From: Halorhodospira halochloris
Lineage (GTDB): Bacteria; Pseudomonadota; Gammaproteobacteria; Nitrococcales; Halorhodospiraceae
Direction of reading: 5' to 3'
NCBI RefSeq assembly: GCF_002356555.2
Contig: NZ_AP017372.2
Location: forward strand, 1,776,501-1,840,500
DNA: 64,000 bases
In this document: positions 3,800-59,519 of the stretch, piece by piece
Layout: every line of letters begins with the position of its first letter
How positions within the stretch are numbered: the first letter of the stretch is position 1
Translations under genes and position numbers: made by a program
Notes under the pieces: generated by a model
The model's input: only the letters and a program-made list of their open reading frames with translations
Told to the model about the DNA's origin: nothing
Database searches by the model: none

Positions 3800-3913
3800 C
3801 CCTGGGGCATTAGTGGACCTGGAGTTGAGGACGCCGTAAATCCATCCTTGGGGGCTTCATGGCGCCATCCCTGGCGCCAAGACCTCAACTCCAGGCCCGC
3901 TAATGCCCCAGGG
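3800..3913 (+). repeat. foldback element, copy 1
   Basis: Arms 3800-3830 and 3883-3913 are complementary at 29 of 31 positions. They flank the family core in forward orientation (acgccgtaaatccatcc... to ...ggcgccaaga). The arm sequence (CCCTGGGGCATTAG) differs from most other copies but is matched on both sides. It lies between the divergently oriented 5' end of the DUF2452 gene and the 3' end of the ligase gene. Confidence 0.9.
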
Positions 3914-3948
3914 TAATTTTGCCAGGTCTCCTGCAGCCTTAATCAATC

Positions 3949-6672
3949 CTAATCGCCGCTCGAGCTCCCCTCGCCAAGCTCTAAAACCCTCTCCCGCAAG
4001 GCGTTGGCAATCCGCTGTTCGCGAGTATCGCCCTCACCCTCCTCCTCCAAGGTGTGCGGCATCACCGGTGCCCCAAAGCGAATACGTAATTTACCGGGTC
4101 GCGGCCAGCGCCGTCCGATGGGCATGGCTTGCTCCGTGCCCTCTATCCAGACCGGTACCACCGGCACTGGGTGGGCCTGGAGAAGCAACCCAACACCAGG
4201 TTGGAATTGCAGCACCTCATTGCTCGGAGCACGCCGCCCCTCAGGGAACCAGACCAGGCCATAGCCGCGCTGCAGCGCTGCAGCGCCCAAAGCCAAACTG
4301 GTCCGCGCACCAGCTCGCGGGTCAACCGGCAGAACCTGGGTACTGCGGCTAAAGTAACGCACCCCAGCATTCTTAAATAAAATGCCGGTAAAACCACCCC
4401 AGTAGATTCGCTCTAGGCGGGCATACGGCAAAGTCGAACCCAAAGCCGGGGAATCCATGATGCTACGGTGGTTAGGCGCCAACAGCACCGGATCAAAGAG
4501 CGGTATCTGATCAACGCCCTCAACCTCCAATGGGCAGTACCAGCGGAAGAACAGCCGATCGACACCCAAAATGACACGACCAACCAGACGCTCGGAGAGT
4601 GTGCGTGAACTCAACCAGCGCTTATGTTCATCGGTAAGCGCATCATCCGGATTAGCCAACTGCTCGACAAGTGGTAACGCCCCATCATCTTCGTCACTAC
4701 CGGCCTCGGCGGCATCCGCGGCTTCGCGCAGCAGATCACGCACCGTCTGCACCCGGGAGATTACCTCCTCGCCAATAATTACCCCGCCCTGCTCACGCAA
4801 CTCCAGAGTCAAGTCAACCCAACCTAGCGAATCTATCCCCAAGTCGAGTCGCAAATCGGTATCAGGGGTTAAGCGCACCGCGCTAAAGCGCTTCGCTAAC
4901 ACATCCCAAACCCGCCGAGCAGGGGTGATCTGCAGCAGCTGCTGATCCTCAACTGCCATGCTTTCGATAGCTACCGGTTGCTGCTCCTGCTTGACCTCGC
5001 CACTTTCTATCCGTTCGTAAAGCTCGCGCAGCTTGTGGCGGCGCATCTTACCCAAGCGTGTGCGCGGCAACGGATCGGGGCTAATCCGATAATCGCTGAT
5101 TTGATGGTGGCTCGGCAACTGCTCCTTTCGCTCCTGCAACGCCTCATTGACCTGCTGACGCGCAGTGCCACTATCCATACCGCGCAAGGCCTCGGGGTCA
5201 GCAAAGAGCACAGCCACCAATCTGCCATTTTGCTCCAGGACACCGGCATCACGAATCGCCTGCGCTGAACAGAGGACCTTCTCAACCCGCTCCGGATCGA
5301 TATTCTCCCCGCCGCCGAGGACGATCATCTCCGAGGCCCGCCCCTCCAGATGCAAGTAGCCCTCATCATCGAACCAGCCCAGATCGCCAGTGCGGTAGAA
5401 ACCGTCCTTAGTGAAGGCCTTATCCGTCTTCTCCGGTAAGTTGTGATAGCCGATAAAGACGTTCGGACCGCGCGCCTGGACCTCCCCTAGCCCGGGTCGA
5501 GCATCTTCCGCTTGCTCATCCTGACCCTCGAGCTCGCCGATCCGCAACTCAACCCCGGGTAGCGGCAAACCGGCACTGTCGAGCTTGGCTTGCCCAGGGG
5601 GATTGTAGGCCAATATCGGCGAGGTCTCGGTCAAGCCGTAACCGGTCGCCACCTCCCAGCCCAAGCTGCGCAAGCTCTCACCCAGCTCAGGGTCAAGCGG
5701 GGCGCCACCCGATACCACCATCCTCACCGACGGTGCCATACGCTTTTGCAAGCCCCGGAATAAGTATTTCCCAATCCGCCAACCGAAACGCTCGCGGGCG
5801 TAGCGCGAAGTGCTCTGCATCGCAGCAAAAATCTTCTGCGCCCGCGCCCCGCGCTCAGCAACACGAGTCTGGATCGCGCTATTGAGCGCCTCGTAGAGCC
5901 GTGGCACGCCGAGGATGATACTCGCATCCCCCTCTTTTAAGGCGCGCACTATCTGCGGCCCGAGAACGGAATATGGCAGCACGATAGTCGCCCCCAGGGT
6001 TAAGGGTGTGAACAGACCTATCGAGAAGGGGTAGACGTGATGGTAGGGCAACGGCACAAAGACCCGATCATCGCGAAAGGCGATTTGCTGCGAGATCAGC
6101 GCCGTTAAATTAGCGGCTATATTGCCGTGGGTCAGCAAAACCCCCTTCGGTGCCCCAGTGGTGCCAGAGGTGTAGAAAAGAGTTGCCAAGTCATCGGCGT
6201 GGACTTGCGCCGGGGCCGGCTTATTGGCGCGCCGCCAGGCATGCCAACTGTTACTTCCTTGCGGCTCAGCGTCCAACCGAATAGCCTTAGGCGGATTCTG
6301 CAAGTCGAGTTGCGCTAAGCGCTGCGCCGGCTCCCCGGCGGTAAAGACATAGCGCACGCCGCTATCGCTGATAGCATGGGCAAGCTCGGCACTCGGCATC
6401 TGGGTGTCATAAGGCGTTACTATGGCGCCCGCCTCAATTATGCCTAAACAGGCTACTATCCACTCGGCGGTGTTGGGTGCTAACAACCCTACCGGGTCGC
6501 CCTTTTCCACCCCATTCGCTGCCAGCCCGGCGCCTAGCTCACGGGCCGCCTGGGCTAGCTCAGCGTAATTCCAAGTAACCAAGCTCTCGCGAGTGAGCAT
6601 GCGCACCGCATCGCGATCGCCTTCCTGTTCAAGCCGGCGGACCAGATCTTGCAGTGTATTTAGCTGTGCCAC
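3949..6672 (-). CDS. acyl-AMP ligase / acyl carrier / acyltransferase fusion protein
   Basis: This is a three-domain protein of about 907 residues. Residues 1-560 form an AMP-dependent acyl-CoA/acyl-ACP synthetase, with the P-loop-like motif YTSGTTGAPKG near residue 175 and TGYGLTETSP near 345. A phosphopantetheine carrier domain follows, with the attachment motif DLGIDSLGW near residue 610. The C-terminal 220 residues are a PlsC-type glycerolipid acyltransferase with NHRSIMD and FPEGRR. The expected role is to activate a fatty acid, load it on the built-in carrier and transfer it to a lysolipid. The open frame extends to 6687, but GGAGG at 6681-6685 points to GTG at 6675 or 6672 as the start. 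It is divergent from the DUF3683 gene. Confidence 0.85.
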   Translation of the reverse strand: MAQLNTLQDLVRRLEQEGDRDAVRMLTRESLVTWNYAELAQAARELGAGLAANGVEKGDPVGLLAPNTAEWIVACLGIIEAGAIVTPYDTQMPSAELAHAISDSGVRYVFTAGEPAQRLAQLDLQNPPKAIRLDAEPQGSNSWHAWRRANKPAPAQVHADDLATLFYTSGTTGAPKGVLLTHGNIAANLTALISQQIAFRDDRVFVPLPYHHVYPFSIGLFTPLTLGATIVLPYSVLGPQIVRALKEGDASIILGVPRLYEALNSAIQTRVAERGARAQKIFAAMQSTSRYARERFGWRIGKYLFRGLQKRMAPSVRMVVSGGAPLDPELGESLRSLGWEVATGYGLTETSPILAYNPPGQAKLDSAGLPLPGVELRIGELEGQDEQAEDARPGLGEVQARGPNVFIGYHNLPEKTDKAFTKDGFYRTGDLGWFDDEGYLHLEGRASEMIVLGGGENIDPERVEKVLCSAQAIRDAGVLEQNGRLVAVLFADPEALRGMDSGTARQQVNEALQERKEQLPSHHQISDYRISPDPLPRTRLGKMRRHKLRELYERIESGEVKQEQQPVAIESMAVEDQQLLQITPARRVWDVLAKRFSAVRLTPDTDLRLDLGIDSLGWVDLTLELREQGGVIIGEEVISRVQTVRDLLREAADAAEAGSDEDDGALPLVEQLANPDDALTDEHKRWLSSRTLSERLVGRVILGVDRLFFRWYCPLEVEGVDQIPLFDPVLLAPNHRSIMDSPALGSTLPYARLERIYWGGFTGILFKNAGVRYFSRSTQVLPVDPRAGARTSLALGAAALQRGYGLVWFPEGRRAPSNEVLQFQPGVGLLLQAHPVPVVPVWIEGTEQAMPIGRRWPRPGKLRIRFGAPVMPHTLEEEGEGDTREQRIANALRERVLELGEGSSSGD

Positions 6673-6762
6673 CACATCAACCTCCACTGCTGAGCTGACG
6701 GTCGAGTCAGCGTCGCTTTCCTGTTAGTATGTAGCGATTCCTTAAGCAACCACTCATAGAGC

Positions 6763-9700
6763 ATGGCTGATAGCGTAGACACTCCACGTATACGAGAAAT
6801 TCCATATAACTATACCTCTTTCTCTGATCGCGAGATCGTCTCCCGGTTTCTCGGCGCTGAGACCTGGGAGCTCCTCAATGAGCTGCGCGGCGAGCGGCGC
6901 ACCGGCATATCTGCGCGCATGCTCTTCGAGGTGCTCGGCGATCTCTGGGTCGTCTCGCGTAACCCCTACATCCAAGACGACCTGATCACTACGCCGAAGC
7001 GTCTTCGCGCTTTGGCCAGCTCTATGCACCATCGCATCGACGAGATTATCGCCCGTGCCGATGGGAACGAAAAGGCATTGCGCCTGGCCGAAAAGGCCCG
7101 TACTGCTGTTAACGAGTTCACCGCACACTACCAGCAAGTAAAACGCCGACGCCAGCGTATACGCAGCCGTCTAGGCAGATATGCCCGCCGCGACAATATA
7201 TGCTTCGACGGCTTATCGCGCGTCTCCCACGCCACAGATGCTACCGACTGGCGGGTGGAGATACCCTTTGTCGTTCTCACCCCGGACAGTGAGGAAGAGA
7301 TAGCCCCGCTGGTCGCCACTTGTATTGAGGAGGGGTTGACAGTCATCCCGCGCGGCGGCGGCACCGGCTATACCGGGGGAGCGGTACCGCTCGACTCAAA
7401 CTCAGCGGTCCTTAACACCGAGAAGCTCGATCATATCTCGGCGGTGGAGCGAGTGGAACTACCCGGCGTAGAGCAGCCGGTAACTACGGTCCAGGTCGGG
7501 GCTGGGGCAGTTACCCGCCGGGTCAGCGAACGTGCTGAAGAGTCAGGCTTGGTCTTTGCAGTCGACCCTACTTCGCAAGAGGCGTCGACTATCGGCGGCA
7601 ACATATCCATGAACGCCGGCGGCAAAAAGGCCGTGCTGTGGGGGACCACGCTCGATAACGTCGCCTCCTACCGCATGGTAACTGCTGAGGCGAAGTGGAT
7701 TGAGGTCGAGCGCATCAATCACAACCTGGGCAAGCTCGACGAGCAAGATCAGGTTGAGTTCCGTATCACCCACTACGACACCGATGGCAAGACTCAGCTA
7801 GGCGAGCCCGAAACCCTGACTTTCGCGGGCTCATCTTTTCGCAAGACCGGGCTCGGCAAGGACGTAACCGACAAGCACTTAGGCGGTCTGCCTGGAGTGC
7901 AAAAAGAAGGCTGCGATGGGTTAATAACCTCGGCACGCTTCGTCCTCCACCGTATGCCGAGCCATATGCGCACCGTCTGTCTGGAGTTTTACGGCACCGA
8001 TCTACACCAAGCAGTGCCAGCGATTACCGAGATCCGCGATGACCTTATCGCTGATCAGCAAGTCGCCCTAGCCGGCTTGGAACACCTCGACGAGCGCTAC
8101 ATTCAGGCCGTCGATTACAGCCCCAAGGCCAACCGCCGCGAACAGCCGAAGATGCTGCTGCTCGCCGATCTCGCTGGTGACGATCCAGATGCCGTGGCCG
8201 CCGCCGCCGACCGGGCCGTCGAGATGGCCCGCAAGCGTGACGGCGAAGGCTTCATAGCCGTCTCTCCGGAAGCGCGCCGGCGCTTCTGGTCGGAGCGCTC
8301 GCGTACTGCAGCGATCGCCGCCCATACCAACGCCTTCAAGATCAATGAGGACGTGGTAATCCCCCTGGAGAGGCTAGCTGAGTACACCGAGGGGATTGAG
8401 CGGATCAACATAGAGCACTCGATCCGCAACAAACTGGCCATGATCGATAAGATCATCGACTATCTTGACGGTCCCATGCCGGAGATCCGTGAGGCCCCCG
8501 ACTTCGAAGAGAGCGAGGAAGGCGAACGGATTATAGCTGACAAGAAAGAATCGGCTAACGCTCATTTGCGCAAGGTTCGTGAGCGGTGGCAAAACCTGCT
8601 CGACGCCATGGATGAACCGGCGACGGAGCGCGAAGATCTGCTCGACGATAAGGCACGCGCTGACCTGCGTGATGGCGACAGGATTCTCGATCTGCTGTTG
8701 CGCCGTAGCCTGCGCGTCTCCTTCCGCGAGGAAGCGGAGCGCCCCATCGATGAAACCTTTAACGGCCGTGACCTGCAGCCAGTCCGGGCACGTTTTGCCA
8801 AGATCCATGATCGGGTACTGCGTAGCCGCCTGTTCGTGGCCCTGCACATGCACGCCGGTGACGGCAACGTCCATACCAACATCCCGGTCAACTCCAACGA
8901 CTACGCGATGATGCGCGAGGCAGAGGGGATCGTCGACCGGATAATGGATCTGGCTGTCTCGTTAGGCGGGGCCATCACCGGCGAACACGGCGTCGGTCTG
9001 ACCAAGATCCAGTACCTTGACCCGCAGCAGGTCGAGCGTTTTGCTGAGTACAACGAGCGAGTAGACCCCGAGGGTCGTTTTAACCGTGGCAAGTTGCTGC
9101 CTGGCTCCGGTTTGGATAGAGCCTATACGCCGTCGCTTCGCCTAGTAGAGCAGGAAGCTCTGATCCTTGAGGAGAGCGAGCTCGGTGACCTCAACTTCCA
9201 GATCAAGGACTGCCTGCGCTGTGGCAAGTGCAAGCCTAAGTGCAATACCCATGTGCCCGGAGCCAACCTGCTCTATTCGCCGCGTAACAAGATACTCGCC
9301 GCCGGCCTATTGATTGAGGCCTTCCTCTATGAGGAGCAGACGCGACGTGGGCTATCGCTGCGCCATTTCGAGTCGATGAACGACATCGCAGACCATTGCA
9401 CCATCTGTCATAAGTGTCTTCAGCCCTGCCCGGTAAACATCGACTTTGGTGACGTTACCATTCGTCTGCGTCAGATCCTTGAAGAGCGCGGTAAACGGCG
9501 CAAACGTCTAGCCGCAAAGTTGTCGCTGAAGTTCCTTAACACCCAAGACCCGCGGCTAGTCAAGGCTATGCGGCTGGGCCTAGCCCGCTTTGGCTTCGCT
9601 GCCCAAGCCAAGGTCTCCCATTGGCTGCGGCGCCTGGGGGTATTACCGATAACTCGCCGCCCCAGCGCAACTACCGGCACCTCAAATACGGTTACCCAGG

Positions 9701-10620: not shown

Positions 10621-10656
10621 CTTTGCAGTCAACCCTATGAGTCCTGCGGAGATTCT

Positions 10657-11013: not shown

Positions 11014-11106
11014 GGGCGAGCCTCTGCAAGGGCGCCTTGAATCTATCCGCGGAGTCATCAAACGGTGCGGCGAAAGCGCGCCTCCTGTTGTACTAGAAGG
11101 GGTTAC

Positions 11107-11127
11107 CGTCACATCCTATATGTGACG
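11107..11127. promoter_or_regulatory. inverted repeat in the puf upstream region (putative operator)
   Basis: An 8-bp perfect inverted repeat with a 5-bp spacer, CGTCACAT-N5-ATGTGACG, lies about 180 bp before pufB in the 293-bp gap after the DUF3392 gene. Its symmetry suits a dimeric regulator. It does not match the CrtJ/PpsR (TGT-N12-ACA) or Fnr (TTGAT-N4-ATCAA) patterns. I see no gene in the gap, and neither pufQ nor pufX. Confidence 0.4.
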
Positions 11128-11567: not shown

Positions 11568-11609
11568 CCCCGGTAACGGTAAAGGCAAAACGGCTAAGGA
11601 GACTGAACC

Positions 11610-15803: not shown

Positions 15804-15953
15804 GGATGCATCCAAAAACTCCCGGCCCCATCTTAGCTACCCCGTTATGGAGGACGCCGTAAATCCATCCCTGAAGGCTTGATGGCCCCTACCTGAAGCC
15901 AAGACCTCCATACCGGGGCAGATGGTGGCGCCGGCAAAGTTTTAGAGGCACCC
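15804..15953 (+). repeat. foldback element, copy 2 (degenerate or chimeric)
   Basis: The forward core (acgccgtaaatccatccctgaagg...) lies between TATGGAGG at 15846 and CCTCCATA at 15905. The right arm continues as CAGATGGTGGCGCCGG...GTTTTAGAGGCACC, while the left arm reads TCTTAGCTACCCCG. The two outer arms belong to different arm types, so the copy looks recombined and decayed. It occupies most of the gap between the Sel1 gene and the lipocalin gene. Confidence 0.8.
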
Positions 15954-21978: not shown

Positions 21979-22120
21979 TCGAGCCAGCTAGCTGCCCCAC
22001 GTGTGGACGCCGCTGTTAATCCATTCGCCGTTAATCCATCCCATGGGGCCCCATGGCGCCATCCCTGGCACCATGAGCTCCACACCGGGGCAGCTAACTG
22101 ACACGGGGGATGTTTTAGAG
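21979..22120 (+). repeat. foldback element, copy 3 (variant core)
   Basis: The left arm (AGCCAGCTAGCTGCCCC...GTGTGGA) and right arm (CTCCACACCGGGGCAGCTAACT...GTTTTAGAG) match the family. The forward core carries an internal duplication (CCGTTAATCCAT occurs in two versions) and a G-rich change. It lies 12 bases before copy 4, upstream of the GGDEF-EAL gene. Confidence 0.8.
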
Positions 22121-22131: not shown

Positions 22132-22280
22132 GGCACCTCATAAAACTTCCCCGGAGCCACCATCTGCCCCGGTGTGGAGGTCTTGGCGCCAGGGATGGCG
22201 CCATGAAGCCTCCAAGGACGGATTCACGGCGTCCTCCACACCGGGGCAGATGGTGGCTCCGGGGAAGTTTTAGAGGTGCC
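22132..22280 (-). repeat. foldback element, copy 4 (near-perfect)
   Basis: Arms 22132-22180 and 22233-22280 are complementary over 48 bp with a single one-base indel. They run from GGCACCTC at the outer end to GGTGTGGAGG at the inner end. The 52-base core lies between them in reverse orientation. It sits head-to-head with copy 3 in the 862-bp gap between the GGDEF-EAL gene and the YhcB-like gene. Confidence 0.95.
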
Positions 22281-27412: not shown

Positions 27413-27556
27413 GGAACCTCTGCTCCCCCGTGCCACTAATCTGCCCCGTTGTGGAGGACGCCGTGAATCCATCCCTGGAGGCTTCATGGCGCCATCCCTG
27501 GCGCCAAGACCTCCACACCGGGGCAGTTTGAGTGGCCCAGGGGGAGCAGAGGTTCC
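27413..27556 (+). repeat. foldback element, copy 5 (between soeB and soeC)
   Basis: Arms 27413-27457 and 27510-27556 are complementary, with mismatches in the middle. The outer ends are GGAACCTCTGCTCCCCC and its complement, which differ from other copies yet match each other. The core is in forward orientation. The copy should be transcribed as part of the soe message. Confidence 0.92.
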
Positions 27557-31903: not shown

Positions 31904-32290
31904 CTGCCCTCCCGGTTATTTCTGTTGCCATGCGGTTGGTGAGCTTCGCGCCCACCGGCGGGCGCAGTTAACGGGTGTACCTGTCGGCTGCGTCACGGAG
32001 CACCCGCCGATTTTCCGCAGCATGCGCCTCCGGCCCTGGCAACGCCTAGCATGCTAACCCTAGCAAGGATGCCCACTTTTTGATATGAGTCACAATTAGC
32101 CTGAGGGGAGAGCTTGCGGGGAGTTGGTTATCTCTTTGGGGATATGGATCAGTGGGGAGGTAGGAGTAATTGCTGGGGTATGGGGAGCGTAGAAACTTTC
32201 GAGCTGCGGAGCTGCCGCGGTGGAGGGGTTCTGTAATGCTTTCCAGGGGGCTTATGGCGCCGTCCCTGGCGACAGTTGTTCAGCTGCAAG
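31904..32290. other. soe upstream region with a decayed foldback copy
   Basis: No gene is seen. The soe promoter, reading leftward, should lie in 31910-32100. A palindromic TAGCATGCTA occurs at 32047-32056 with a related CTAGCA beside it, which could be an operator. At 32215-32285 scattered family motifs (GGTGGAGGGG, GGGGCTTATGGCGCCGTCCCTGGCG) mark a decayed foldback copy directly before an intact one. Confidence 0.45.
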
Positions 32291-32433
32291 GGCATCTTGC
32301 CCCCCCGGAGTCATCATCTGCCCCGGTGTGGAGGACGCCGTGAATCCGTCCTTGGAGGCTTCATGGCGCCATCCCTGGCGCCAAGACCTCCACACCGGGG
32401 CAGATGATGGCTCCGGGGAGGTTAGAGGTGCCC
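32291..32433 (+). repeat. foldback element, copy 6
   Basis: Left arm 32291-32334 (GGCATCTTGCCCCCCCGGAGTC at the outer end; GGTGTGGAGG at the inner end) and right arm 32387-32433 are complementary with a few mismatches in the outer part. The core is forward. The copy lies just past the 3' end of the outer-membrane protein gene. Confidence 0.92.
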
Positions 32434-33341: not shown

Positions 33342-33494
33342 GGGGCCTCCGATACTTCCCCTGAGCCACTTAGCTGCCCCCGGGGTGGAGGTCTTGGCGC
33401 CAGGGATGGCGCCGTGAAGCCTCCAGGGATGGATTCACGGCGTCCTCCACACCGGGGCAGCTAAGTGTCCCAGGGGAAGTCCTATGGGCGCCCC
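33342..33494 (-). repeat. foldback element, copy 7
   Basis: Left arm 33342-33391 and right arm 33444-33494 are complementary with scattered mismatches (outer GGGGCCTCCGATACTTCCCC; inner CTTAGCTGCCCC). The core is in reverse orientation. It lies upstream of the outer-membrane protein gene and before the reductase gene. Confidence 0.9.
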
Positions 33495-34672: not shown

Positions 34673-34834
34673 AGGGGGTGGCCTCTAAAAACCCTCCCTG
34701 GAGTCACTCAACTGCCCCAGTGTGGAGGTCTTGTCACCAGGGATGGCGCCATGAAGCCTCCAGGGACGGATTCACGGCGTTCTCCACACCGGTGGCGGTT
34801 GAGTGGCCCCAGGGAGGGTTTTTGGAGGTGCCCT
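34673..34834 (-). repeat. foldback element, copy 8
   Basis: The left arm (AGGGGGTGGCCTCTAAAAACC... to ...AGTGTGGAGG at 34728) and the right arm (TCTCCACACCGG... to ...TTTTTGGAGGTGCCCT at 34834) are largely complementary. The arms include a CACTCAACTG / GGTTGAGTGG segment shared only with copies 5 and 9. The core is reversed. A small decayed fragment (CAGCGTCCTCCCCACGGGGG) lies at 34617-34637. Confidence 0.9.
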
Positions 34835-37026: not shown

Positions 37027-37174
37027 CAACCTACACACTATCCCCGGGGCTACTCAACTGTCCCGGTGTGGGGGTCTTGGCGCCAAGGATGGCGCCATCA
37101 ATCCTCCAGGGATGGATTCACGGCGTCCTCCACACCGGGGCGGATGGTGGCGCCGGCGAAGTTTTAGAGGCACC
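37027..37174 (-). repeat. foldback element, copy 9 (chimeric arms)
   Basis: The reverse core lies between GTGTGGGGG (37067) and CCTCCACAC. The right arm (GGGGCGGATGGTGGCGCCGG...TTTTAGAGGCACCC) is of the type seen in copies 11 and 16. The left arm (TCCCCGGGGCTACTCAACTGTCCC) is of the copy 8 type, so the outer arms do not pair. It looks like a recombinant of two copies. It separates the RsbT/X and RsbR genes. Confidence 0.88.
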
Positions 37175-38465: not shown

Positions 38466-38536
38466 GGGTGCCTCTAAAACTTCGCCGGCGCCACCATCCG
38501 CCCCGGCGTGGAGGTCTTGGCGCCAGGGATGGCGCC
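38466..38536 (-). repeat. foldback element, copy 10 (truncated half)
   Basis: Only the left arm (GGGTGCCTCTAAAACTTCGCC...GGCGTGGAGG) and the first part of the reversed core (TCTTGGCGCCAGGGATGGCGCC) remain. The sequence breaks off exactly at the GGCGCC hairpin and runs into another hairpin. Confidence 0.9.
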
Positions 38537-38576
38537 GCGCTATCACCCCGCCCGATTAGGCGGGGCCATTAGCGCG
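38536..38576. terminator. hairpin between the convergent rsbS-like and doxX genes
   Basis: CGCGCTA...CCCCGCC pairs with GGCGGGG...TAGCGCG around the loop CGATTA. It lies between two convergent gene ends and may stop transcription in both directions, although neither side has a T-run. It abuts the truncated foldback copy. Confidence 0.5.
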
Positions 38577-39126: not shown

Positions 39127-39278
39127 GGGAACCTCTAAAACTTCGCCGGCGCCCACCATCCGCCCCAGTGTGGAGGTCTTGGCGCCACGGATGGCGCCAT
39201 GAAGCCTCCAGGGATGGATGCACGACGTCCTCCACACCGGTGCGGATGGTGGGCGCCGGCGAAATTTTAGAGGTTCCC
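39127..39278 (-). repeat. foldback element, copy 11 (flanked by a 5-bp direct repeat)
   Basis: Arms 39127-39176 and 39229-39278 are 50 bp long and complementary except for about three positions. Both arms carry an extra base in GCGCCCACC / GGTGGGCGC compared with copy 16. CCGAA directly precedes (39122-39126) and follows (39279-39283) the element, as a target-site duplication would. The core is reversed. Confidence 0.93.
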
Positions 39279-39534
39279 CCGAAACACTATAAGTTTCTAC
39301 CACTCTCGACAGCTTAACCTAGGTATACGTTCACTTTTTACCAAAGCTGATCTAGCCTAGCAGCACTTGATAAGTCCTTGACGAGGTTGCGGCGACCACC
39401 ATCCATACGCAATAGAGCGAGGTCTGTACGTGCTCCACCAAAACGGCGAACAGATAGAGGTGCGGAATCCGGCGCAATTCACCCCTGAAGAGTGGTAGCA
39501 GGAACAGCAGCTATCGGGCGCCTCCAAAAGCTCC
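39279..39534. other. non-coding gap after copy 11
   Basis: I find no convincing gene. On the plus strand about 36 codons ending at 39506 read like a protein fragment (YAIERGLYVLHQNGEQIEV...) without a start. This may be a gene remnant. No function can be named. Confidence 0.3.
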
Positions 39535-40317: not shown

Positions 40318-40456
40318 CCTTTAAAAGTCCCCAGAGCCAAACGGTCCCCCGGTGTGGAGGACGCCGTAAATCCATCCTTGGAGGCTTCATGGCACCATCC
40401 CTGGCGCCAAGACCTCCACACCGAGGTTAACCTGTTGGCTCGGGGGACTTTAAAGG
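40318..40456 (+). repeat. foldback element, copy 12
   Basis: The left arm (CCTTTAAAAGTCCCCAGAGCC...GGTGTGGAGG) and right arm (CCTCCACACCGAGG...GGGGGACTTTAAAGG) pair at the outer and inner ends but mismatch in the middle (ACGGTCCCCC against GGTTAACCTG). The core is forward. It lies just upstream of the Cas6-like gene. Confidence 0.88.
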
Positions 40457-40612: not shown

Positions 40613-40762
40613 GGTGCCTCCGGAAACTCCCCTGAGCCATCTAGCTGCCCCGGTATGGAGGTCTTGGCGCCAGGGATGGCGCCATGAAGCCTCCAGGGAT
40701 GGATTCACGGCGTCCTCCATACCGGGGCAGCTAGATGGCTCAGGGGAGTTTCCGGAGGCACC
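40613..40762 (-). repeat. foldback element, copy 13 (perfect 49-bp arms)
   Basis: Arms 40613-40661 and 40714-40762 are perfectly complementary over 49 bp. They carry copy-specific changes on both sides: TATGGAGG with CCTCCATA, and CTCCGGAAACTCCCC with its complement. The core is reversed. It is about 160 bp upstream of dsrA, in the region that should hold the dsr promoter. Confidence 0.96.
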
Positions 40763-49608: not shown

Positions 49609-49745
49609 GGAACCTTTAAAAGCTCCCCGGAGCCATTATCTACCCCGGTGTGGAGGTCTTGGCGCCAGGGATGGCGCCATGAAGCCTCCAAGGATGGATT
49701 CACGGCGTCCTCCAAACCGGGGTAGCTAATGGCTCCGGAGGAGCG
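49609..49745 (-). repeat. foldback element, copy 14 (between dsrL and dsrJ)
   Basis: The left arm (GGAACCTTTAAAAGCTCCCC...GGTGTGGAGG, 49609-49656) and right arm (CCTCCAAACCGGGGTAGCTAATGGCTCCGG...) pair for about 32 bp, then diverge. Both arms carry TACCCC / GGGGTA where most copies have TGCCCC / GGGGCA. The core is reversed. It must be transcribed with the dsr operon. Confidence 0.92.
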
Positions 49746-51028: not shown

Positions 51029-52222
51029 ATGGCGTCACGCACCCACTATCATTGTCTAGGCTATAGCTCCCCGGGGTTTTGGCTAAGTAGCGCTGCCTGT
51101 GCCACCCTGGCCCTCGCCGGTGCCGGCACAGCGCTCTATCTCATGCTGCTCGGCCACCACGTCACAGGTATGGGGACCCAATTAGTCTGGGGGATACCCC
51201 ACGTCTTCGCCCTGACCCTGATCCTCACCGGTGCCGGCGCCCTAGCCATTGCCGCTAGCTCCCAGGTCACTAAGCTCAGCAGCGGCGCAGCGCTGCAGCC
51301 GCTTACCCGGCTCGGCGCCATAGTCGCCAGCGCCTTACTAATCGGCGGCTTGGCTGTGTTGGTATTTGACCTTGGCCGACCGCTGCAACTGCCAGTAACC
51401 TTCCAGCACTTTAATTTTAGCTCCAGCTTCGCGCGCAATATCCTCTTCTATCTCGGCTTCTTTGCCATAGTCGGGCTGCTGCTGTGGACTCAGTTCGATC
51501 CGGCGATGCGCCGCTTCTCGCGCGCTGCCGGCTGGTTGGCAATTATTTGGCCACTCTTGCTCGCTGCTAATGTCGGCTCCATATTCGCCCTTCTCAGTGC
51601 TCACGAGGCCTATCGCGGCGGCTTAATGATCCCGCTGCTATTTAGCGCCGGGCTAACTTACGGCAGTGCCGCCTTGCTTCTAGCCTGGCTCGCGGTCCAC
51701 TACCACTCACCTAACGCCGCTAGTCAGCCGGTGAGCGAGCGCTTGAGCTCTCTGCTCGCGCTGTTTATCGGCGCCCATGCCTCGATACTCATCGTCCACG
51801 TGCTCAGCATGTTCTACATGCCGGCTTATCGTGACGCAGCCAGTTTCCTCCTCATCGACGGTGGCATCTACCCGGTCATCTTCTGGCTTGGGCAGGTGCT
51901 CACCGGTATGATCATCCCCTCTCTCCTCCTGCTGTCGGGGGTGGCCCGCAGGCATGCCGGGTTGCTCGCCATAACGGCGGGTCTGGTGCTGCTTGGTGGG
52001 CTAGCCCATCTTTTCGTGATGGTCGTCGGCGCCCAAGCGCACCCATTGTCGATATTTCCCGGCTATGAGGTGACAGGCGCCGTCTTCGATGGGGAGGCTT
52101 TCTATTATTCACCTAGTCTATGGGAGTGGTTATTGGGGATTAGCGGTGCCGCAATAGCCACACTGATCGTCCTCATCGGGCTACGCATACTCCCGCTTAC
52201 CCCTTACTATAGGGGGCCATGA
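51029..52222 (+). CDS. dsrP: DsrP NrfD-family membrane subunit
   Basis: DsrP (397 residues) is a polytopic membrane protein of the NrfD/PsrC type with about ten helices. It exchanges electrons between quinone and DsrO/DsrJ. Hydrophobic segments are evident throughout, with conserved-looking LVFDLGRPLQLP and VLSMFYMP motifs. Its stop overlaps dsrN (ATGA). Confidence 0.93.
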   Translation: MASRTHYHCLGYSSPGFWLSSAACATLALAGAGTALYLMLLGHHVTGMGTQLVWGIPHVFALTLILTGAGALAIAASSQVTKLSSGAALQPLTRLGAIVASALLIGGLAVLVFDLGRPLQLPVTFQHFNFSSSFARNILFYLGFFAIVGLLLWTQFDPAMRRFSRAAGWLAIIWPLLLAANVGSIFALLSAHEAYRGGLMIPLLFSAGLTYGSAALLLAWLAVHYHSPNAASQPVSERLSSLLALFIGAHASILIVHVLSMFYMPAYRDAASFLLIDGGIYPVIFWLGQVLTGMIIPSLLLLSGVARRHAGLLAITAGLVLLGGLAHLFVMVVGAQAHPLSIFPGYEVTGAVFDGEAFYYSPSLWEWLLGISGAAIATLIVLIGLRILPLTPYYRGP

Positions 52223-53796
52223 GCCGAATATATATCTCAGCCCTACATAAATCGTCGGGCAAAACAACACTCGCCATCGGCATCACCGCGGCGCTCAGCG
52301 CTCGCGATGTGACCGTGCAACCCTATAAGCGCGGCCCCGACTATATCGACCCGGGCTGGCTCAGCTTGGCGGCAGGAAGGCCTTGCCATAATCTCGATTT
52401 CCATACCCAGAGCACGGCGGAACTGCTGAGCAGTGTTGCTGAGACCGCCGCGCAGTTCGCCCTGATTGAGGGCAATAAGGGGCTCCACGACGGCACTGAT
52501 GCACAGGGCAAAGACAGTAACGCCGCCCTCGCTGCCTTGTTGCAGACGCCGGTTGTGCTGGTAGTTGACTGTCGCGGCATGACCCGCGGCATCGCCCCGA
52601 CCTTGCTCGGCCATAGCCAGTTTGATCCGCGCATCCAGGTCTCCGGGGTAATCCTCAATCGGGTTGCCGGCAGTCGCCACGAGCGCAAACTCCGGCAAGC
52701 TGTGGAGCAATACACCGACATCAGCGTCCTCGGGGCTATCCCCGATCAAAGCGAATTAGCCATCGCCGCCCCCTACCTCGGCCTGGTGCCGGCCCCGGAG
52801 CAACGGGAGCAAGCGCAGCGGACAATTCGCACCATCGCCGCGGTAACCGCTGAACATGTCGATCTCGAGCAGACTCTTTCTATAGGACGCCTTGAAAAAC
52901 TCACTCGATCTGACTGGTTGCCCGGGTGTGAAGGACGCCGTGAATCCATCCCTGGAGGCTTCACAGCGCCATCCCTGGCGCCAAGACCTTCACCCCGGGA
53001 CAACCAGTCAGACCGGTGGAATCCTGCAAGTTGCCCCATAGGCCGCAAACAAGAGCCGAGCCGCGCGCCATCCGTGGAGTCACACCCTCCACCGCGGCAC
53101 TATGAGCAGCCCTCGCAGGCTGAGGCTACTCTGCGCTTGGGTGTGGCTTACGATCAGGCCTTCAACTTCTATTACCCCGGCGATTTGCAGGCACTGCAAG
53201 CGGCGGGGGCCGAGTTGGTCTGGATCGATATGCTCAGCGCGCCCGAGTTACCACCGCAGCTCGACGGTCTACTCATCGGCGGCGGCTTCCCCGAGCGTCA
53301 CGCCGCCGCGCTGGCTGCTAATGAATCGATGCGGGCTTCGGTATCCGCTGCGGCGCTAGTCGGACTACCGATCTACGCCGAATGCGGCGGCCTTATGTAC
53401 CTCTGCCAGCACTTGACCATCGGGGACGCCACCTATCCCATGGCCGGGCTATTCCCGCTGACTATCGCCATGAACCGTAAACCGCAGGGGCACGGTTATG
53501 TGCGCCTGCAAGTCAATCCATCTGCGCCGTGGTCGCCCGCAGCGCCGGGACAAAACGAACTGCCGGCTCACGAGTTCCACTACTCGGCGCTAGCCGCCGC
53601 AGCTCCCCGCGATGCTGAGTCGACCTTTACCTATGCCTACCAGATACAAGGCGGAAGCGGACTCGGCAACGGTCATGACGGTCTGGTAAAGGCCAACACC
53701 ATGGCCAGTTATGCCCATTTGCGGCACACTCAGGCTAGCCCGTGGGCGGATAATTTCATCGCTTTCCTCAGGCGAGCCTCTAAAACTACCCCCTGA
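52219..53796 (+). CDS. dsrN: DsrN, sirohaem amidase / cobyrinate a,c-diamide synthase family, with in-frame foldback insertion
   Basis: DsrN is thought to amidate sirohaem for DsrAB with glutamine and ATP. The N-terminal P-loop domain (ISALHKSSGKTTLAIGI, KRGPDYIDPGW, IEGNKGLHDG) ends near residue 225. The C-terminal glutamine amidotransferase domain starts near 300 (LGVAYDQAFNFYYPGDLQAL) and holds the nucleophile in YAECGGLMYL. The linker between them contains a complete foldback element (52910-53011, exactly 34 codons, residues about 231-264) read without a stop. The last codons (SKTTP) and the stop also lie in an element arm. At 525 residues it is longer than usual for the family. Confidence 0.93.
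   Translation: MSRIYISALHKSSGKTTLAIGITAALSARDVTVQPYKRGPDYIDPGWLSLAAGRPCHNLDFHTQSTAELLSSVAETAAQFALIEGNKGLHDGTDAQGKDSNAALAALLQTPVVLVVDCRGMTRGIAPTLLGHSQFDPRIQVSGVILNRVAGSRHERKLRQAVEQYTDISVLGAIPDQSELAIAAPYLGLVPAPEQREQAQRTIRTIAAVTAEHVDLEQTLSIGRLEKLTRSDWLPGCEGRRESIPGGFTAPSLAPRPSPRDNQSDRWNPASCPIGRKQEPSRAPSVESHPPPRHYEQPSQAEATLRLGVAYDQAFNFYYPGDLQALQAAGAELVWIDMLSAPELPPQLDGLLIGGGFPERHAAALAANESMRASVSAAALVGLPIYAECGGLMYLCQHLTIGDATYPMAGLFPLTIAMNRKPQGHGYVRLQVNPSAPWSPAAPGQNELPAHEFHYSALAAAAPRDAESTFTYAYQIQGGSGLGNGHDGLVKANTMASYAHLRHTQASPWADNFIAFLRRASKTTP
52910..53011 (+). repeat. foldback element, copy 15 (in frame inside dsrN)
   Basis: Arms 52910-52934 (CTGACTGGTTGCCCGGG...) and 52987-53011 are complementary over 25 bp with about three mismatches and flank a forward core. 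The arms are shorter than in other copies. The length is 102 bp, a multiple of three, and the reading frame stays open. The encoded residues include GCEGRRESIPGGFTAPSLAP. Confidence 0.96.
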
Positions 53797-53968
53797 GGGA
53801 ACCTCTAAAACTTCGCCGGCGCCACCATCCGCCCCGGTGTGGAGGACGCCGTGAATCCATCCCTGGAGGCTTCATGGCGCTATCCCTGGCGCCAAGACCT
53901 CCACACCGGGGCGGATGGTGGCGCCGGCGAAGTTTTAGAGGCCACCCTGAGCCATTTGGCTGCCCCGA
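53776..53968 (+). repeat. old foldback arm split by copy 16
   Basis: GCCTCTAAAACTACCCCCTGAG (from 53776) and, after copy 16, CCCTGAGCCATTTGGCTGCCCC (from 53945) together reproduce one typical left arm. CCCTGAG occurs at both junctions (53791-53797 and 53945-53951). The rest of the older element is missing. The dsrN stop codon lies within this arm. Confidence 0.75.
53798..53944 (+). repeat. foldback element, copy 16 (perfect 44-bp arms, nested)
   Basis: Arms 53802-53845 and 53898-53941 are perfectly complementary over 44 bp (outer CCTCTAAAACTTCGCCGG, inner GGTGTGGAGG). The core is forward. It lies inside an older element arm and is bordered by a CCCTGAG direct repeat, so it looks recently inserted. 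Confidence 0.96.
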
Positions 53969-54231
53969 AAAGCTTATAAAGTAGGTCAGGCTGATCCGCT
54001 CGCGTCATAAATACTGCAGGCCCTTCCCTTTTGCCCATTTGTATGTATATAGTCTAATAAATGGTTGCACTGAAGATTGGCAGCCCGCAACCATAAGCAA
54101 AACAAACTTTAACAATAAAAAAAGCCGTTACAGACAGCGCAAAAAACCATAAAAATAGCGTTGGCAAACCTATAACAGCAAAGAATAAAAACAATAATAC
54201 AAGTTAATCTGCTGCCGCAGGAGGAGAGACC
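53969..54231. other. AT-rich leader of the sensor kinase gene
   Basis: No gene is seen. The region is strikingly AT-rich for this genome, with many A-tracts between 54100 and 54210, and should hold the promoter of the two-component genes. TATAGTCTAATAA near 54047 is a possible -10 region. Regulator sites cannot be named from reading alone. Confidence 0.4.
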
Positions 54232-55530: not shown

Positions 55531-56161
55531 CGATCACCGCCTGTTTCGGGCGGCACTGCAGGAGCTCCTATCAACGCAAGGGATAACGACGGAGACCGGC
55601 TCAGGTGAGGATGACGTTTTAGCTCTCGCAGCAAGCTTTAAACCCGATCTAGTCCTGCTCGACCTGAAGATGCCCGGTCAAGATGGCCTCACTCTGCTTG
55701 GTGAACTCCACGAGCGCTTTCCCCAGCTGCCGGTAATTATGCTAACCGGCAGCGAGGAGGAGAAGAATCTCTTTGATTGCCTGCGGGCTGGGGCGCAGGG
55801 TTACCTACTCAAGGATAGTGACCCGGAGTATCTAGTCTCCGCCCTCCATGAGGCGACCAACGGCCGCATCCCGGTCGCCCCGCAACTCACCGACACCCTA
55901 GCCCGTGCCCTAGGCCAGCCACCCAGCGAGCGTGATCCTCAGCAGCCACCAGACCCCTTCGCCGCCTTAACCCCGCGCGAGAAGGATATTCTCGAACGGC
56001 TTGCGGTTGGGGAGAGTAATAAGGTTATCGCCCGTCATCTTGGTATCTCTGATGGTACCGTAAAGCTGCATGTCAAATCGGTTCTGCGTAAACTCGGCGT
56101 CCATTCACGGGTGGAGGCGGCTATAAAGGCCCTCGATCTCGGCCTACCGCGCGCTAAATGA
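55511..56161 (+). CDS. NarL/LuxR-family response regulator
   Basis: This 216-residue regulator has a receiver domain (VLLVDDHRLFRAAL, phospho-acceptor Asp in LVLLDLKMPGQDG) and a LuxR-type HTH domain (LTPREKDILERLAVGESNKVIARHL, TVKLHVKSVLRKLGV). The ATG at 55511 overlaps the kinase gene by 20 bases, so the pair is coupled. Targets are unknown; the nearby dsr, YeeE and SulP genes are candidates. Confidence 0.92.
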   Translation: MRVLLVDDHRLFRAALQELLSTQGITTETGSGEDDVLALAASFKPDLVLLDLKMPGQDGLTLLGELHERFPQLPVIMLTGSEEEKNLFDCLRAGAQGYLLKDSDPEYLVSALHEATNGRIPVAPQLTDTLARALGQPPSERDPQQPPDPFAALTPREKDILERLAVGESNKVIARHLGISDGTVKLHVKSVLRKLGVHSRVEAAIKALDLGLPRAK

Positions 56162-56188
56162 ACAGCCCAACAGGCTTCATGTAGTCAG

Positions 56189-56320
56189 CCCCGGAGCCAT
56201 TATCTGCCCGGTGTGGAGGTCTTGGCGCCAGGGATGGCGCCAAGGAGCCTCCAGGGATGGATTCACGGCGTCCTCCACACCGGGGCAGATAATAGCTCCG
56301 GGGAAGTTTGTAGAGGTGCC
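56189..56320 (-). repeat. foldback element, copy 17
   Basis: Inner arms 56189-56219 and 56272-56303 are complementary over about 31 bp (CCCCGGAGCCATTATCTGCCC). The right side continues with the typical outer end (GAAGTTTGTAGAGGTGCC), but the left outer end is lost. The core is reversed. It lies between the regulator and the YeeE gene. Confidence 0.9.
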
Positions 56321-56418
56321 CAATTAGGATATAACTATCCTGAAATGGGTATTCCATCACATTCCCAGCCATGCAAAAATCCGCCTGGTTTGATTAATGT
56401 CATCAGGGGAGAGCCGCA

Positions 56419-57576
56419 ATGGGCCTGGACACGTTAACCTCAGCTCACTGGCTGCTTTTCGGCAGCACCTTTGTGGTTGCAGTAATACTTGGTGCAGTGG
56501 TCAACAAGACCAATTTTTGCACCATGGGGGCGGTCTCAGACATAGTCAACATGCAGGATTGGCAACGCATGCGGGCCTGGATTCTAGCCATGGCTGTAGC
56601 CATTATCGGTGTCGGACTGCTCGAACCGCTGGGCCTGATAAGCGCCGATCAGACCGCACCACCTTATCGAGGAGTGGATATATCCTGGGCCGGGGCCATA
56701 GTTGGTGGCCTGCTATTCGGCATTGGCATGACCCTGGCGAGTGGTTGCGGCAACAAGACGGTAGTCAGGATAGGCGGCGGTAACATCAAGTCACTCTTTG
56801 TGGCCATAGTCCTCGGCTTGGTAGCCTACTTTACAATCAATCCACCGGGCCTTGATGACCCACTGCGCATAGTCTTATTCGAGCCCCTGGCCATCCCCCA
56901 TACCCACGGCCAAGACTTGGGCAGCCTCATCGCGGGCGAGGCAGCAGAGCTTGCCCGGATGTTTATCGCTGTGATACTTGGCGCGGCGCTGCTCTTTTTT
57001 GTCTTCCGCGCCAGCGAATTCCGAGCAAACAAAAACCATATCCTCGGCGGTTTAGTCGTAGGCTTAAGCGTAGTAGCTGTCTGGGCCCTATCGAGCAGCA
57101 TCAGCGTTGAGGGTGAACGCCCGCAAGGGATAGTATTTGTCGGCCCCATCGCTGATACACTGGAGTTTTTCGCCGGCGGCCTCAATTTCTCGCTGATGAA
57201 TGTAGGCGTGGCCGTAGTCCTTGGGGTGATCGTCGGATCGCTACTCTGGTCGCTGATCAGCGGAACCTTTCGAGTTGAGTGGTTTGCCTCCAAGCAAGAC
57301 TTCAGCAACCACTTTATCGGCGGCATTCTCATGGGCTTAGGCGGCCCACTGAGCATGGGCTGCACCTTCGGTCAAGGCATAACTGCCCTATCCACTTTGG
57401 CCATAACGGCGCCACTAGCGATTGCCGGATTGATTATCGGCAGCGCCTTAACCATGAAAGTCCAGTACTACAAAATGCTGCATGAGGATGAGGCGACTGT
57501 GGCCAAGGCCTTGATCACCGGCATGGTCGACCTGCGCCTGCTACCCCAATCGATGAGGCGTCTGGATGACATCTAG
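56419..57576 (+). CDS. YeeE/YedE family sulfur-compound transporter
   Basis: This 385-residue membrane protein belongs to the YeeE/YedE (DUF395) family, members of which import thiosulfate or related sulfur species. The conserved Cys-containing motifs are present twice over: NKTNFCTMGAVSDIV, TLASGCGNKTVVRIGGGN and GPLSMGCTFGQGITALS. The Cys residues are thought to relay the substrate. It overlaps the SulP gene by 11 bases, so the two are coupled. The GGGGAG site fits ATG 56419. Confidence 0.87.
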   Translation: MGLDTLTSAHWLLFGSTFVVAVILGAVVNKTNFCTMGAVSDIVNMQDWQRMRAWILAMAVAIIGVGLLEPLGLISADQTAPPYRGVDISWAGAIVGGLLFGIGMTLASGCGNKTVVRIGGGNIKSLFVAIVLGLVAYFTINPPGLDDPLRIVLFEPLAIPHTHGQDLGSLIAGEAAELARMFIAVILGAALLFFVFRASEFRANKNHILGGLVVGLSVVAVWALSSSISVEGERPQGIVFVGPIADTLEFFAGGLNFSLMNVGVAVVLGVIVGSLLWSLISGTFRVEWFASKQDFSNHFIGGILMGLGGPLSMGCTFGQGITALSTLAITAPLAIAGLIIGSALTMKVQYYKMLHEDEATVAKALITGMVDLRLLPQSMRRLDDI

Positions 57577-59314
57577 GCAGGCTAGCCGGCGGCTATCGAC
57601 GGCCCGCCGGTTAATCCCGGCAAACCAGTGGCAGCGACCGACTCCCTCTACCCTCAAGGCCGACCTGATAGCCGGCATAACGGTCGCTCTGGTCCTGATC
57701 CCGCAGTCCATGGCCTACGCCGCTTTGGCCGGGATGCCCGCCTACTATGGCCTTTACGCCGCTTTTTTGCCGGTTATGGTGGCTGCGTTGTGGGGATCTT
57801 CGCCACAGCTCGCTACCGGTCCGGTGGCGGTAGTAGCACTGCTGACCGCATCAGCACTTACCCCTTTTGCTGAGCCGGGCAGCAGTGAATACATAACCCT
57901 GGCCATAACTTTGGCCATGATGGTCGGCCTATTTCAGCTGCTGCTCGGCCTCTTCTCGCTCGGAACCCTGGTCAACTTTCTCGCCCATCCGGTAATCCTT
58001 GGTTTTACCAATGCTGCAGCCATTGTCATCGCCCTTTCGCAGGTTAATGATCTGTTGGGCATACCCATGGATCGTGAGGCGGGCATGCTCAGCGGCGTCA
58101 TCAAGGTGCTCGCCGACATTGGCTCAACCCACCTACCAACCCTATTACTCGGGTTGGCCGCTCTGCTGATCATGTTCGGCTCACGCCGACTGATTCCCAG
58201 CATACCCGGGGTACTGATCGCAGTAGTTGCGCTGACCCCGGTAAGCTATGTGATCGGCTACGCCGAGATGGGCGGTGAGGTAGTCGGCGAGATCCCCGCC
58301 GGCATACCCACTCCAGCTATGCCCGCCTGGGACTGGGAGACCATCCGTGCTCTGTTGACCACCGCTGCTGTCATTGCCCTAGTAGGGTTCATGGAGGCCA
58401 TATCGATCGCCAAGGCACTAGCTGCTAAGACACGCGATCGCATCGACCCCAACCAAGAGCTGGTCGGTCAGGGGCTAGCCAATATTGCCTCAAGCTTATC
58501 CCAAGCCTTCCCAGTCAGCGGCTCTTTCTCGCGCAGCGCAGTAAACCACAGCAACGGTGCCCGCACCGGGATGTCCTCGGTCTTCACCGCAGTTATGGTC
58601 GCCTTAGCACTGCTCGTGCTAACCCCGCTACTCTACCATTTGCCGATGTCGGTGCTGGCGGCAATTATCATAATGGCCGTGATTGGTCTGGTTAACGTCA
58701 AGGCCATGATCCACACCTGGAAGACCCATACCCATGACGGTGCCGCTGCGCTGACCACTTTTGTAGCCACTCTGGCATTTGCCCCCCATCTTGATTACGG
58801 CATTGTCATCGGGGCGGGGCTTGCAATTGTCCTTTATTTGCTGCGCACCATGCGCCCCCGAGTAGTGATCCTCTCCCGCCACCCTAAAGACGGCACCTTA
58901 CGCGATGCCCAGCTTTTTAAGTTGCCTGTCAGCCGCCATATTGCAGCGCTGCGCTTCGATGGCCCACTCTACTTTGCCAATGTTGGCCACTTGGAAGACC
59001 GCACCCTTGAGATCAACCACGACCATCAAGAGGCGCGCTTCCTGCTGTTGGTTGGTGACGGAATAACCTCCATAGACTCATCGGGGATAGAGACGCTCCA
59101 TAATCTCCACCAAAGACTCCACGATAACGGCGTAACCCTGGTTCTAGCCGGCATCAAACTGCAGGTCTGGGAGGTTATGCAACGCGCCGGGTTAGATAAG
59201 GAGATTGGCCATGACAACATCTTCCGCAATGAAGACGACGCCATTCGCGCGATACACCAGCGCATCGATGATCCGAGTTTCGATCCCCGCTCCTGCCCGC
59301 TGCGTCCCGTTTAG
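57566..59314 (+). CDS. SulP family anion permease with STAS domain
   Basis: This 582-residue transporter has the SulP core (LKADLIAGITVALVLIPQSMAYA with the signature following, GLYAAFLP, FSRSAVNHSNGARTGMSS) and a C-terminal STAS domain (LYFANVGHLEDR, ITSIDSSGIETLHNLH). The family carries sulfate, bicarbonate or other anions. Next to YeeE and dsr, sulfate export or import is plausible, though bicarbonate uptake cannot be excluded. Confidence 0.9.
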   Translation: MTSRQASRRLSTARRLIPANQWQRPTPSTLKADLIAGITVALVLIPQSMAYAALAGMPAYYGLYAAFLPVMVAALWGSSPQLATGPVAVVALLTASALTPFAEPGSSEYITLAITLAMMVGLFQLLLGLFSLGTLVNFLAHPVILGFTNAAAIVIALSQVNDLLGIPMDREAGMLSGVIKVLADIGSTHLPTLLLGLAALLIMFGSRRLIPSIPGVLIAVVALTPVSYVIGYAEMGGEVVGEIPAGIPTPAMPAWDWETIRALLTTAAVIALVGFMEAISIAKALAAKTRDRIDPNQELVGQGLANIASSLSQAFPVSGSFSRSAVNHSNGARTGMSSVFTAVMVALALLVLTPLLYHLPMSVLAAIIIMAVIGLVNVKAMIHTWKTHTHDGAAALTTFVATLAFAPHLDYGIVIGAGLAIVLYLLRTMRPRVVILSRHPKDGTLRDAQLFKLPVSRHIAALRFDGPLYFANVGHLEDRTLEINHDHQEARFLLLVGDGITSIDSSGIETLHNLHQRLHDNGVTLVLAGIKLQVWEVMQRAGLDKEIGHDNIFRNEDDAIRAIHQRIDDPSFDPRSCPLRPV

Positions 59315-59373
59315 GCGCACAGGCAGCATCCATTGTCCTTGGGAAACGTTCTAAAACTGAACTGAACCTTATA

Positions 59374-59519
59374 GGCACCTCTAAAACTCTCCGGTAGCCA
59401 TTTAGCTGCCCCAGCGTGGAGGTCTTGGCGCCAGGGATGGCGCCATGAAGCATCCAGGGATGGGTTAACGGCGTCCTCCACGCTGGGGCAGCTAAATGGC
59501 TACCGGAGAGTTTTAGAGG
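59374..59519 (-). repeat. foldback element, copy 18 (perfect 45-bp arms)
   Basis: Arms 59378-59422 and 59475-59519 are perfectly complementary over 45 bp. They carry copy-specific paired changes (CTCCGGTAGCC / GGCTACCGGAG and AGCGTGG / CCACGCT). The core is reversed with a few changes (GGTTAACGGCG). A short decayed fragment follows at 59540-59590 (CAGGTCTTGACGCCAGGAACGGCG). Confidence 0.95.

Follow-up and report, generated by a model that had tools for sequence, protein, structure and literature searches.

High-copy foldback repeats of Halorhodospira halochloris are miniature inverted-repeat elements with a TwoAYGGAY-type core and a stem probably kept paired at the DNA level

A 64,000-nucleotide stretch of the Halorhodospira halochloris genome (contig NZ_AP017372.2, positions 1,776,501 to 1,840,500; hereafter the window) contains a high-copy family of foldback elements, each with a conserved core between two long complementary arms. 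In this study, we found that the element is real and mobile, and that its kind is largely explained: it is a miniature inverted-repeat transposable element (MITE) with a core of the type of the RNA motif TwoAYGGAY (Rfam RF01731). Our combined reading is that the repeats are H. halochloris MITEs carrying a TwoAYGGAY-type three-way junction, mobilised by an IS5-family transposase, with a stem maintained by template switching and, more tentatively, a predicted function as a CsrA decoy. We consider this reading probable as a whole.

A preliminary description of the window had reported about 18 clear copies plus decayed ones, and the counts agree with it. The 18-mer core GGCGCCATCCCTGGCGCC, allowing up to 3 mismatches, matched 18 times between 3861 and 59444, against 0.22 matches expected and at most 2 in 100 shuffles; the match at 38519 is a half element only, and those at 22055 and 32256 are decayed. 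A covariance model found 17 copies in the window, including one (15839-15919) overlooked by the 18-mer pattern, and did not recover the half copy at 38519 or the decayed copy at 32256. The core of about 52 nt with room for two hairpins was present in the window copies as described. The long complementary arms were likewise confirmed, as a palindrome scan blind to the core detected 11 long foldbacks with arms of 20-50 bp, and all 11 carried the core. The DNA fold of the copy at 53797..53946 had a z-score of -16.4. The copies in the window are listed below, with the means by which they were found.

53797..53946, plus strand: complete element of the youngest arm type; arms 53802-53845 and 53898-53941, core 53846-53897; CTGA target duplication on both sides.
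39127..39279, minus strand: complete element flanked by a 4-bp target duplication; core 39177-39228; one-base insertion in each arm.
34675..34833, minus strand: complete element with approximate ends; core 34729-34780; CTGA target duplication (weaker end match).
3800..3913, plus strand: arms and core; core 3831-3882; 18-mer, palindrome scan and model.
15839..15919, plus strand: diverged copy overlooked by the 18-mer; model, 64.6 bits.
21994..22091, plus strand: decayed copy; 18-mer, and model at 40.9 bits.
22141..22272, minus strand: arms and core; core 22181-22232; 18-mer, palindrome scan and model.
27443..27524, plus strand: inner arms and core; core 27458-27509; 18-mer, model and fold.
32226..32277, plus strand: decayed core beside the copy at 32303..32418; 18-mer with 2 mismatches, not recovered by the model.
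32303..32418, plus strand: arms and core; core 32335-32386; 18-mer, palindrome scan and model.
33354..33480, minus strand: arms and core; core 33392-33443; 18-mer, palindrome scan and model.
37060..37141, minus strand: inner arms and core of a mosaic copy; core 37075-37126; outer arms of different arm types by eye; 18-mer and model.
38466..38540, minus strand: half element with hairpin 2 and a single arm; 18-mer.
40346..40427, plus strand: inner arms and core; core 40361-40412; 18-mer and model.
40613..40762, minus strand: arms and core, with arms of 49 bp and zero mismatches; core 40662-40713; 18-mer, palindrome scan and model.
49627..49738, minus strand: arms and core; core 49657-49708; 18-mer, palindrome scan and model.
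52905..53032, plus strand: copy within an open CobB/CbiA-like frame; core 52935-52986; 18-mer and model.
56189..56303, minus strand: arms and core; core 56220-56271; 18-mer, palindrome scan and model.
59378..59519, minus strand: arms and core; core 59423-59474; 18-mer, palindrome scan and model.

The family is not confined to the window. The H. halochloris genome is a single contig of 2,834,560 bases, in which the exact 18-mer core occurred 138 times, 63 forward and 75 reverse, so that copies lie in both orientations as had been stated; the reversed control gave 0. A 29-mer core with up to 3 mismatches identified 248 copies in this genome and none in 58 related genomes, 8 of them of the same genus. 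The detailed comparisons below use 129 copies from examined stretches, out of the 248 genome-wide. When the core-blind palindrome scan was applied to 20 further stretches of this genome, chosen by position and totalling 400 kb, 21 of 23 palindromes had the core. No core-bearing palindrome was found in 390 kb of three congeners (none at all in G006 and G007; four in G002, all without the core). The two long coreless palindromes of H. halochloris (L170 17505-17620 and L178 4756-4873) have CGGTCACGTTGGCTCGGAATTCC in common and perhaps represent another foldback family.

What the preliminary description lacked is that the family is, in addition, a MITE of ordinary appearance whose copies are flanked by 4-bp target duplications. 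The element is about 150 bp long, and its arms, read inward, start with GGGNN-CCTCTAAAAAC. Target duplications were examined in the 50 of 129 copies that had two motif-recognised ends (79 were left out). With the ends set by the motif alone, identical 4-nt flanks were present in 34 of these 50 copies, compared with a mean of 1.0 and a maximum of 5 in 2000 shuffles. The target was C-NNNN-G, with C at -1 in 22 of 33 cases and G at +1 in 29 of 33. A copy at 253924 interrupts an older half copy, and its flanks, minus one duplication, rejoin hairpin 1 and its arm. The element therefore has the properties of a MITE, being short, bounded by terminal inverted repeats, flanked by target duplications and present in hundreds of copies.

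The ends and the duplication length are those of an IS5-family insertion sequence (IS), which was found in the congener G002 and not in H. halochloris itself. Three 79-bp MITEs of G002 have matching ends and 4-bp duplications, and the IS (L165 920-2990) has matching ends and CATT on both sides. Its transposase belongs to the IS5 family, as NF033581 matched it in two pieces at 176 bits (N-terminal) and 67 bits, against a cut-off of 140 for the whole protein. This transposase is split by about 700 bp (L165 about 1780-2495), read from the translation as a BrnT/BrnA-like toxin-antitoxin pair. The H. halochloris element resembles the IS5-family ISs and MITEs of the genus in the end GGGNNCCTC[TG]AAAAAC and the 4-bp duplication, and differs from them in its arms of about 50 bp and its conserved, structured core. 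The H. halochloris genome itself has a degraded DDE fragment (L094 1280-2003; IS5-like by eye) with the end GGGAGCCTCTATAAAC, beside an IS1634-like transposase remnant (by eye), and a search of this genome with the N-terminal G002 transposase piece gave no match (no positive control). The earlier statement that no transposase lies in the window holds for DDE_Tnp_1 and Y1_Tnp, the families sought there. It is likely that an IS5-family transposase, not found intact in the own genome, moved the elements by way of their outer ~16 bp.

The 4-bp duplications also bear on another mode of transposition, in which the element would be a single-strand unit similar to repetitive extragenic palindromes (REPs) and their hairpin-forming doublets (REPINs), moved by a REP-associated tyrosine transposase (RAYT, a Y1 transposase) that recognises the T. 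The hairpin core and six Y1_Tnp matches in the genome are compatible with it. However, the core was found within 1.5 kb at only one of the six Y1 loci, about 1.4 kb from the gene, and to our knowledge defined 4-bp duplications are not expected of Y1 transposition. We regard this alternative as very improbable, and a RAYT partner is disfavoured. REPINs as described in PMC3116915 are dispersed extragenic foldbacks too, but have conserved ends and a variable spacer, whereas the H. halochloris element has a conserved core, innermost arm and tips, a variable mid-arm and direct target duplications. The GTAG/CGTC-tagged REPs of PMC3733652 are high-copy palindromes, and tyrosine-transposase elements flanked by terminal inverted repeats are described there; the present element has, by eye, neither a GTAG tag nor an 8-9 bp CGTC stem. 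The likeness to a viral terminal hairpin noted earlier is confined to shape. A viral or phage origin was rejected, as the core pattern had no match in viral contigs and a copy from another genome (G325) had none in phages. The elements are unlikely to be integron attC sites, being dispersed, although one cluster of attC sites lacking an integron-integrase (CALIN) is reported for H. halochloris (PMC7923331).

The preliminary description knew of no named family with this core. In this study, the core proved to be of the TwoAYGGAY type, read on the opposite strand. RF01731 matched a locus of another genome of the class, L270, at 44 bits against a cut-off of 43, with the outer stem and both hairpins in register; our model placed the element at 1501-1582 of this locus and RF01731 at 1481-1602, on opposite strands. 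Among 18 element loci of other genomes, only L270 and L280 gave any match to RF01731, and the latter reached 32.8 bits, below the cut-off. Like TwoAYGGAY, the H. halochloris element has a long outer stem and two hairpins, which follow the same order and are capped by similar apical loops. The two differ in that the H. halochloris element is present in high copy number and within MITEs, and in that its complement mostly has AGGGAU loops, so that AYGGAY in both loops, a trait of RF01731, was not found. In 41 aligned rows, the base opposite the N of ANGGA was C in 31, A in 9 and G in 1 for hairpin 1, and C in 28, A in 11 and T in 2 for hairpin 2; the loops are therefore ANGGA throughout, and AYGGA in a minority. 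A table published in 2010 rates TwoAYGGAY as a probable RNA that is probably not cis-regulatory and gives human gut, gamma-Proteobacteria and Clostridiales as its sources (PMC2864571), whereas Rfam types RF01731 as cis-regulatory. Matches to a CsrA motif and a poorly conserved external stem are reported for it in PMC4333381, and we take this external stem to correspond to the arms of the present element. In the literature searched, which was mainly open-access, we found no report of this element as mobile.

The core was also found in other genomes of the class. The paired motif CCATCCMTGG-N8..24-CCATCCMTGG matched 17 of 369 genomes, own included, and the reversed pattern matched none. In three genomes of other families (G325, G153 and G416), the same core of 49-54 nt lies between long, quite different complementary arms, although arm pairing is weaker in G416 and in some of the G153 copies, and G325 and G153 each include one copy that is cut or masked. 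A covariance model was built from 10 H. halochloris and 6 G325 copies, and the arm pairs of these 16 rows were all two-sided. The model matched 63 of the 369 genomes, own included, at E <= 0.001; at most 12 candidates per genome were scored under strict filters, so that copies per genome are lower bounds. The 41 matches (40 distinct) from 30 other genomes gave 25 of 30 pairs with two-sided changes, and the covariation score was 0.824, compared with 0.195 for shuffled and at most 0.129 for slid alignments. These results back the T shape proposed earlier, with two hairpins on a shared outer stem as in RF01731. Plasmids of Marinobacter adhaerens, Enterobacter chuandaensis and Halomonas also matched, at 57.0, 72.3 and 47.3 bits. 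In the phylum, 26 of 398 genomes matched, own included, and the matches listed were all of the same class, the class make-up of the 398 not being shown. A stricter core pattern gave two single matches in 84,980 genomes (own left out), in Lachnospiraceae and Morganella, which is about chance level by our own estimate. A species-specific core was rejected, as the looser paired-loop pattern and the covariance model match many genomes of the class.

Since copies picked by their core would bias the measurement of core conservation, it was measured on a core-blind sample of 32 copies chosen by pairing alone. The median divergence per nucleotide was 0.40 for the mid-arm between copies, 0.096 for the core and 0.08 between the two arms within a copy. 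The mid-arm thus differs between copies about fourfold more than the core, and the innermost ~16 arm bases are conserved too. The median arm pairing score was 37 within a copy versus 14 between copies, and for 68 of the 129 copies the best-scoring right arm overall was the copy's own. We then counted changes in 48 near-identical copies, which are 48 of the 60 type-A copies among the 129, with variants in the A-run and at the two outermost reference bases set aside. In these copies, 65 changes were on both arms and 70 on one, while 8.8 paired changes were expected and 27 was the maximum in 5000 shuffles. Ten of the 27 kinds of paired change were seen in a single copy only, and insertions and a deletion were among them. 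An identical insertion on both arms can hardly come from independent mutation, and fits copying of one arm from the other. The element has two end types, and the core was found either way round between them (25 versus 8, with 8 and 3 symmetric; Fisher p 0.009; 44 copies, six unclassed end pairs of 50 being left out). A similar core flip was observed in genome G120 with markers of 24 and 35 nt, in 7 copies versus 2.

Published work names two products of template switching between inverted repeats, homogenised arms and an inverted spacer (PMC8604942; PMC8794818). The paired arm changes, including insertions and deletions, and the core flips are likely the two marks of DNA template switching. The published cases resemble ours in both products and differ in that they were shown in yeast genes and RNA genes and not as upkeep of a mobile family. 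Pairing of the long stem is thus likely maintained at the level of DNA. On reaching the foldback during replication, the nascent strand would switch template and copy one arm from the other, and a mutation or small insertion or deletion in an arm would then be either erased or written into both arms. An occasional switch would invert the core between the ends.

Alternatively, arm pairing could be kept by selection for an RNA structure, with compensatory mutations arising stepwise through G-U pairs. The strong covariation over the arms and both hairpins in elements of the 30 other genomes, which persists when window copies are included, argues for such selection, as does the conservation of the unpaired loops. 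Stepwise change should leave wobble intermediates; however, few were seen in the arms, with 4 one-sided cells against 277 two-sided and 18 unpaired cells across genomes, and none one-sided in the 16-row alignment with H. halochloris. Single copies with identical insertions in both arms are also at odds with it. We consider selection for RNA structure unlikely as the cause of the pairing.

The core is carried by elements with other ends as well. In G368, the same core sits in a MITE of about 213-223 bp with different ends (CAGGGC.../...GCCCTG) and direct repeats of about 10 bp, which were read from the flanks at 4 of 4 copies examined, one with a mismatch. In G360, the arms of seven copies look unrelated between loci by eye beyond the innermost bases, yet they pair. 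BLAST of one G360 copy against the others in that genome gave matches that span at most 110, mostly 50-88, of 482 nt. For one of these copies, the orthologous spacer in a sister species lacks the element and holds unrelated sequence. The locus-specific but paired arms, the short BLAST matches and the absence at the orthologous spacer would agree with a further explanation of the matched arms, in which each insertion, primed by the foldback, copies its own target flank in inverted form. In H. halochloris, however, the arms can be recognised as members of a single family and the 4-bp duplication is direct, and the sister site is an unrelated spacer with no clean empty site seen. This explanation appears quite improbable to us.

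ANGGA in a hairpin loop is the recognition site of CsrA/RsmA. In 41 of 41 model-selected rows, both loops of the core have the sequence TCCNT, which gives ANGGA with a free N on the complement, although the model itself contains these letters. Among 30 H. halochloris cores of the core-blind sample, the two N positions ranked with the more changeable sites, being changed in 6 and 5 cores. CsrA genes were present in six of six genomes checked, H. halochloris included. For one copy, 82 nt of the complement strand gave the T when folded (z -4.22), both hairpins ending in a GGGA loop with an A-U closing pair. From another copy, 60 nt of this strand that included little of the arms did not form the T (z -1.25). 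The core may be kept because its transcribed complement would present two ANGGA loops, the form bound by CsrA/RsmA. Each copy would then act as a small CsrA-binding decoy or as a module in the leader or trailer of an mRNA. This predicted role, read from the loops and folds, is a tentative one that we think less likely to hold than to fail. Similarly, it is possible but rather doubtful that TwoAYGGAY is a travelling module, a predicted twofold CsrA-binding decoy repeatedly acquired by unrelated gammaproteobacterial MITEs, whose RNA-like covariation would come from DNA template switching and not from stepwise selection.

Instead, the family may be a plain selfish MITE whose core is a passenger without a cellular role, prominent only through a few master copies. 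The clear signs of a MITE in the identical flanks, the presence of the 29-nt core string in only one of 59 genomes, its own, and the lack of orientation bias described below are in line with this possibility. On the other hand, variation in the core-blind sample is fourfold lower in the core than in the mid-arms, elements of other genomes have invariant bases at the same loop positions, and the core also occurs in a carrier with other ends. We regard a passenger core as a serious possibility, somewhat short of an even chance.

Several observations weigh against the combined reading of a CsrA decoy in a template-switched IS5-type MITE. The H. halochloris genome yielded no intact IS5 transposase with these ends. 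No H. halochloris copy tested reached the gathering score of RF01731; the whole window was searched at gathering, one window copy at E <= 5 and one other copy (L260) at E <= 0.5. Model score decided which rows entered the alignments, and the rows were then fitted to the model; pair counts and loop conservation therefore lean towards it. Arm mismatches rise with core divergence (Spearman 0.32, p 0.0005, 114 copies); older copies with more mismatches imply that in-place correction is not constant, and arm copying may take place mainly in an active lineage or at transposition. Mismatches that keep a G.U pair on the complement outnumber those that keep it on the core strand by 124:67 over all copies, or 38:21 by copy with 62 ties, which favours selection on an RNA; this asymmetry is gone in young copies (13:12) and reversed across genomes (8:13), which speaks against such selection. 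The mismatch-age and wobble counts used copies with at least 25 paired columns. There was also no strand bias relative to neighbouring genes, with 13 copies opposite and 10 same among the 23 between same-strand genes. An mRNA role would predict such a bias, and its lack counts against that role.

As far as the papers show, the carriers, the copy number and the evidence of stem rewriting at the DNA level are new relative to the literature searched. These findings link an RNA motif that had no function assigned in its 2010 listing to mobile repeats and give it a concrete, testable candidate ligand, and the family offers hundreds of natural replicates for arm homogenisation and spacer inversion. 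It is also a warning that a DNA copying mechanism can produce covariation, which is usually taken as proof that an RNA stem is functional.

The earlier statement that copies lie mostly between genes was checked roughly with a crude codon-score gene finder, which placed 24 copies between convergent and 11 between divergent genes (127 of 129 copies). The copy at 52905-53032 departs from it, lying inside an open 525-aa frame (52219-53796) between the CbiA/AAA and GATase_3 domains, and may represent an insertion that preserves the frame of a CobB-like cobalamin enzyme. In-frame insertions of this kind are reported for the Rickettsia palindromic elements. The mosaic copy at 37060-37141 has left and right arms of seemingly different types, as expected from recombination between copies at the core. 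In G595 (contig 1, 94429-95647), six consecutive model matches at a spacing of about 227 nt form a tandem array of T cores. Other high-copy repeats, in G324 (L249-L258) and G300 (L240-L248), have CCATCCATGG twice with no long arms around it.

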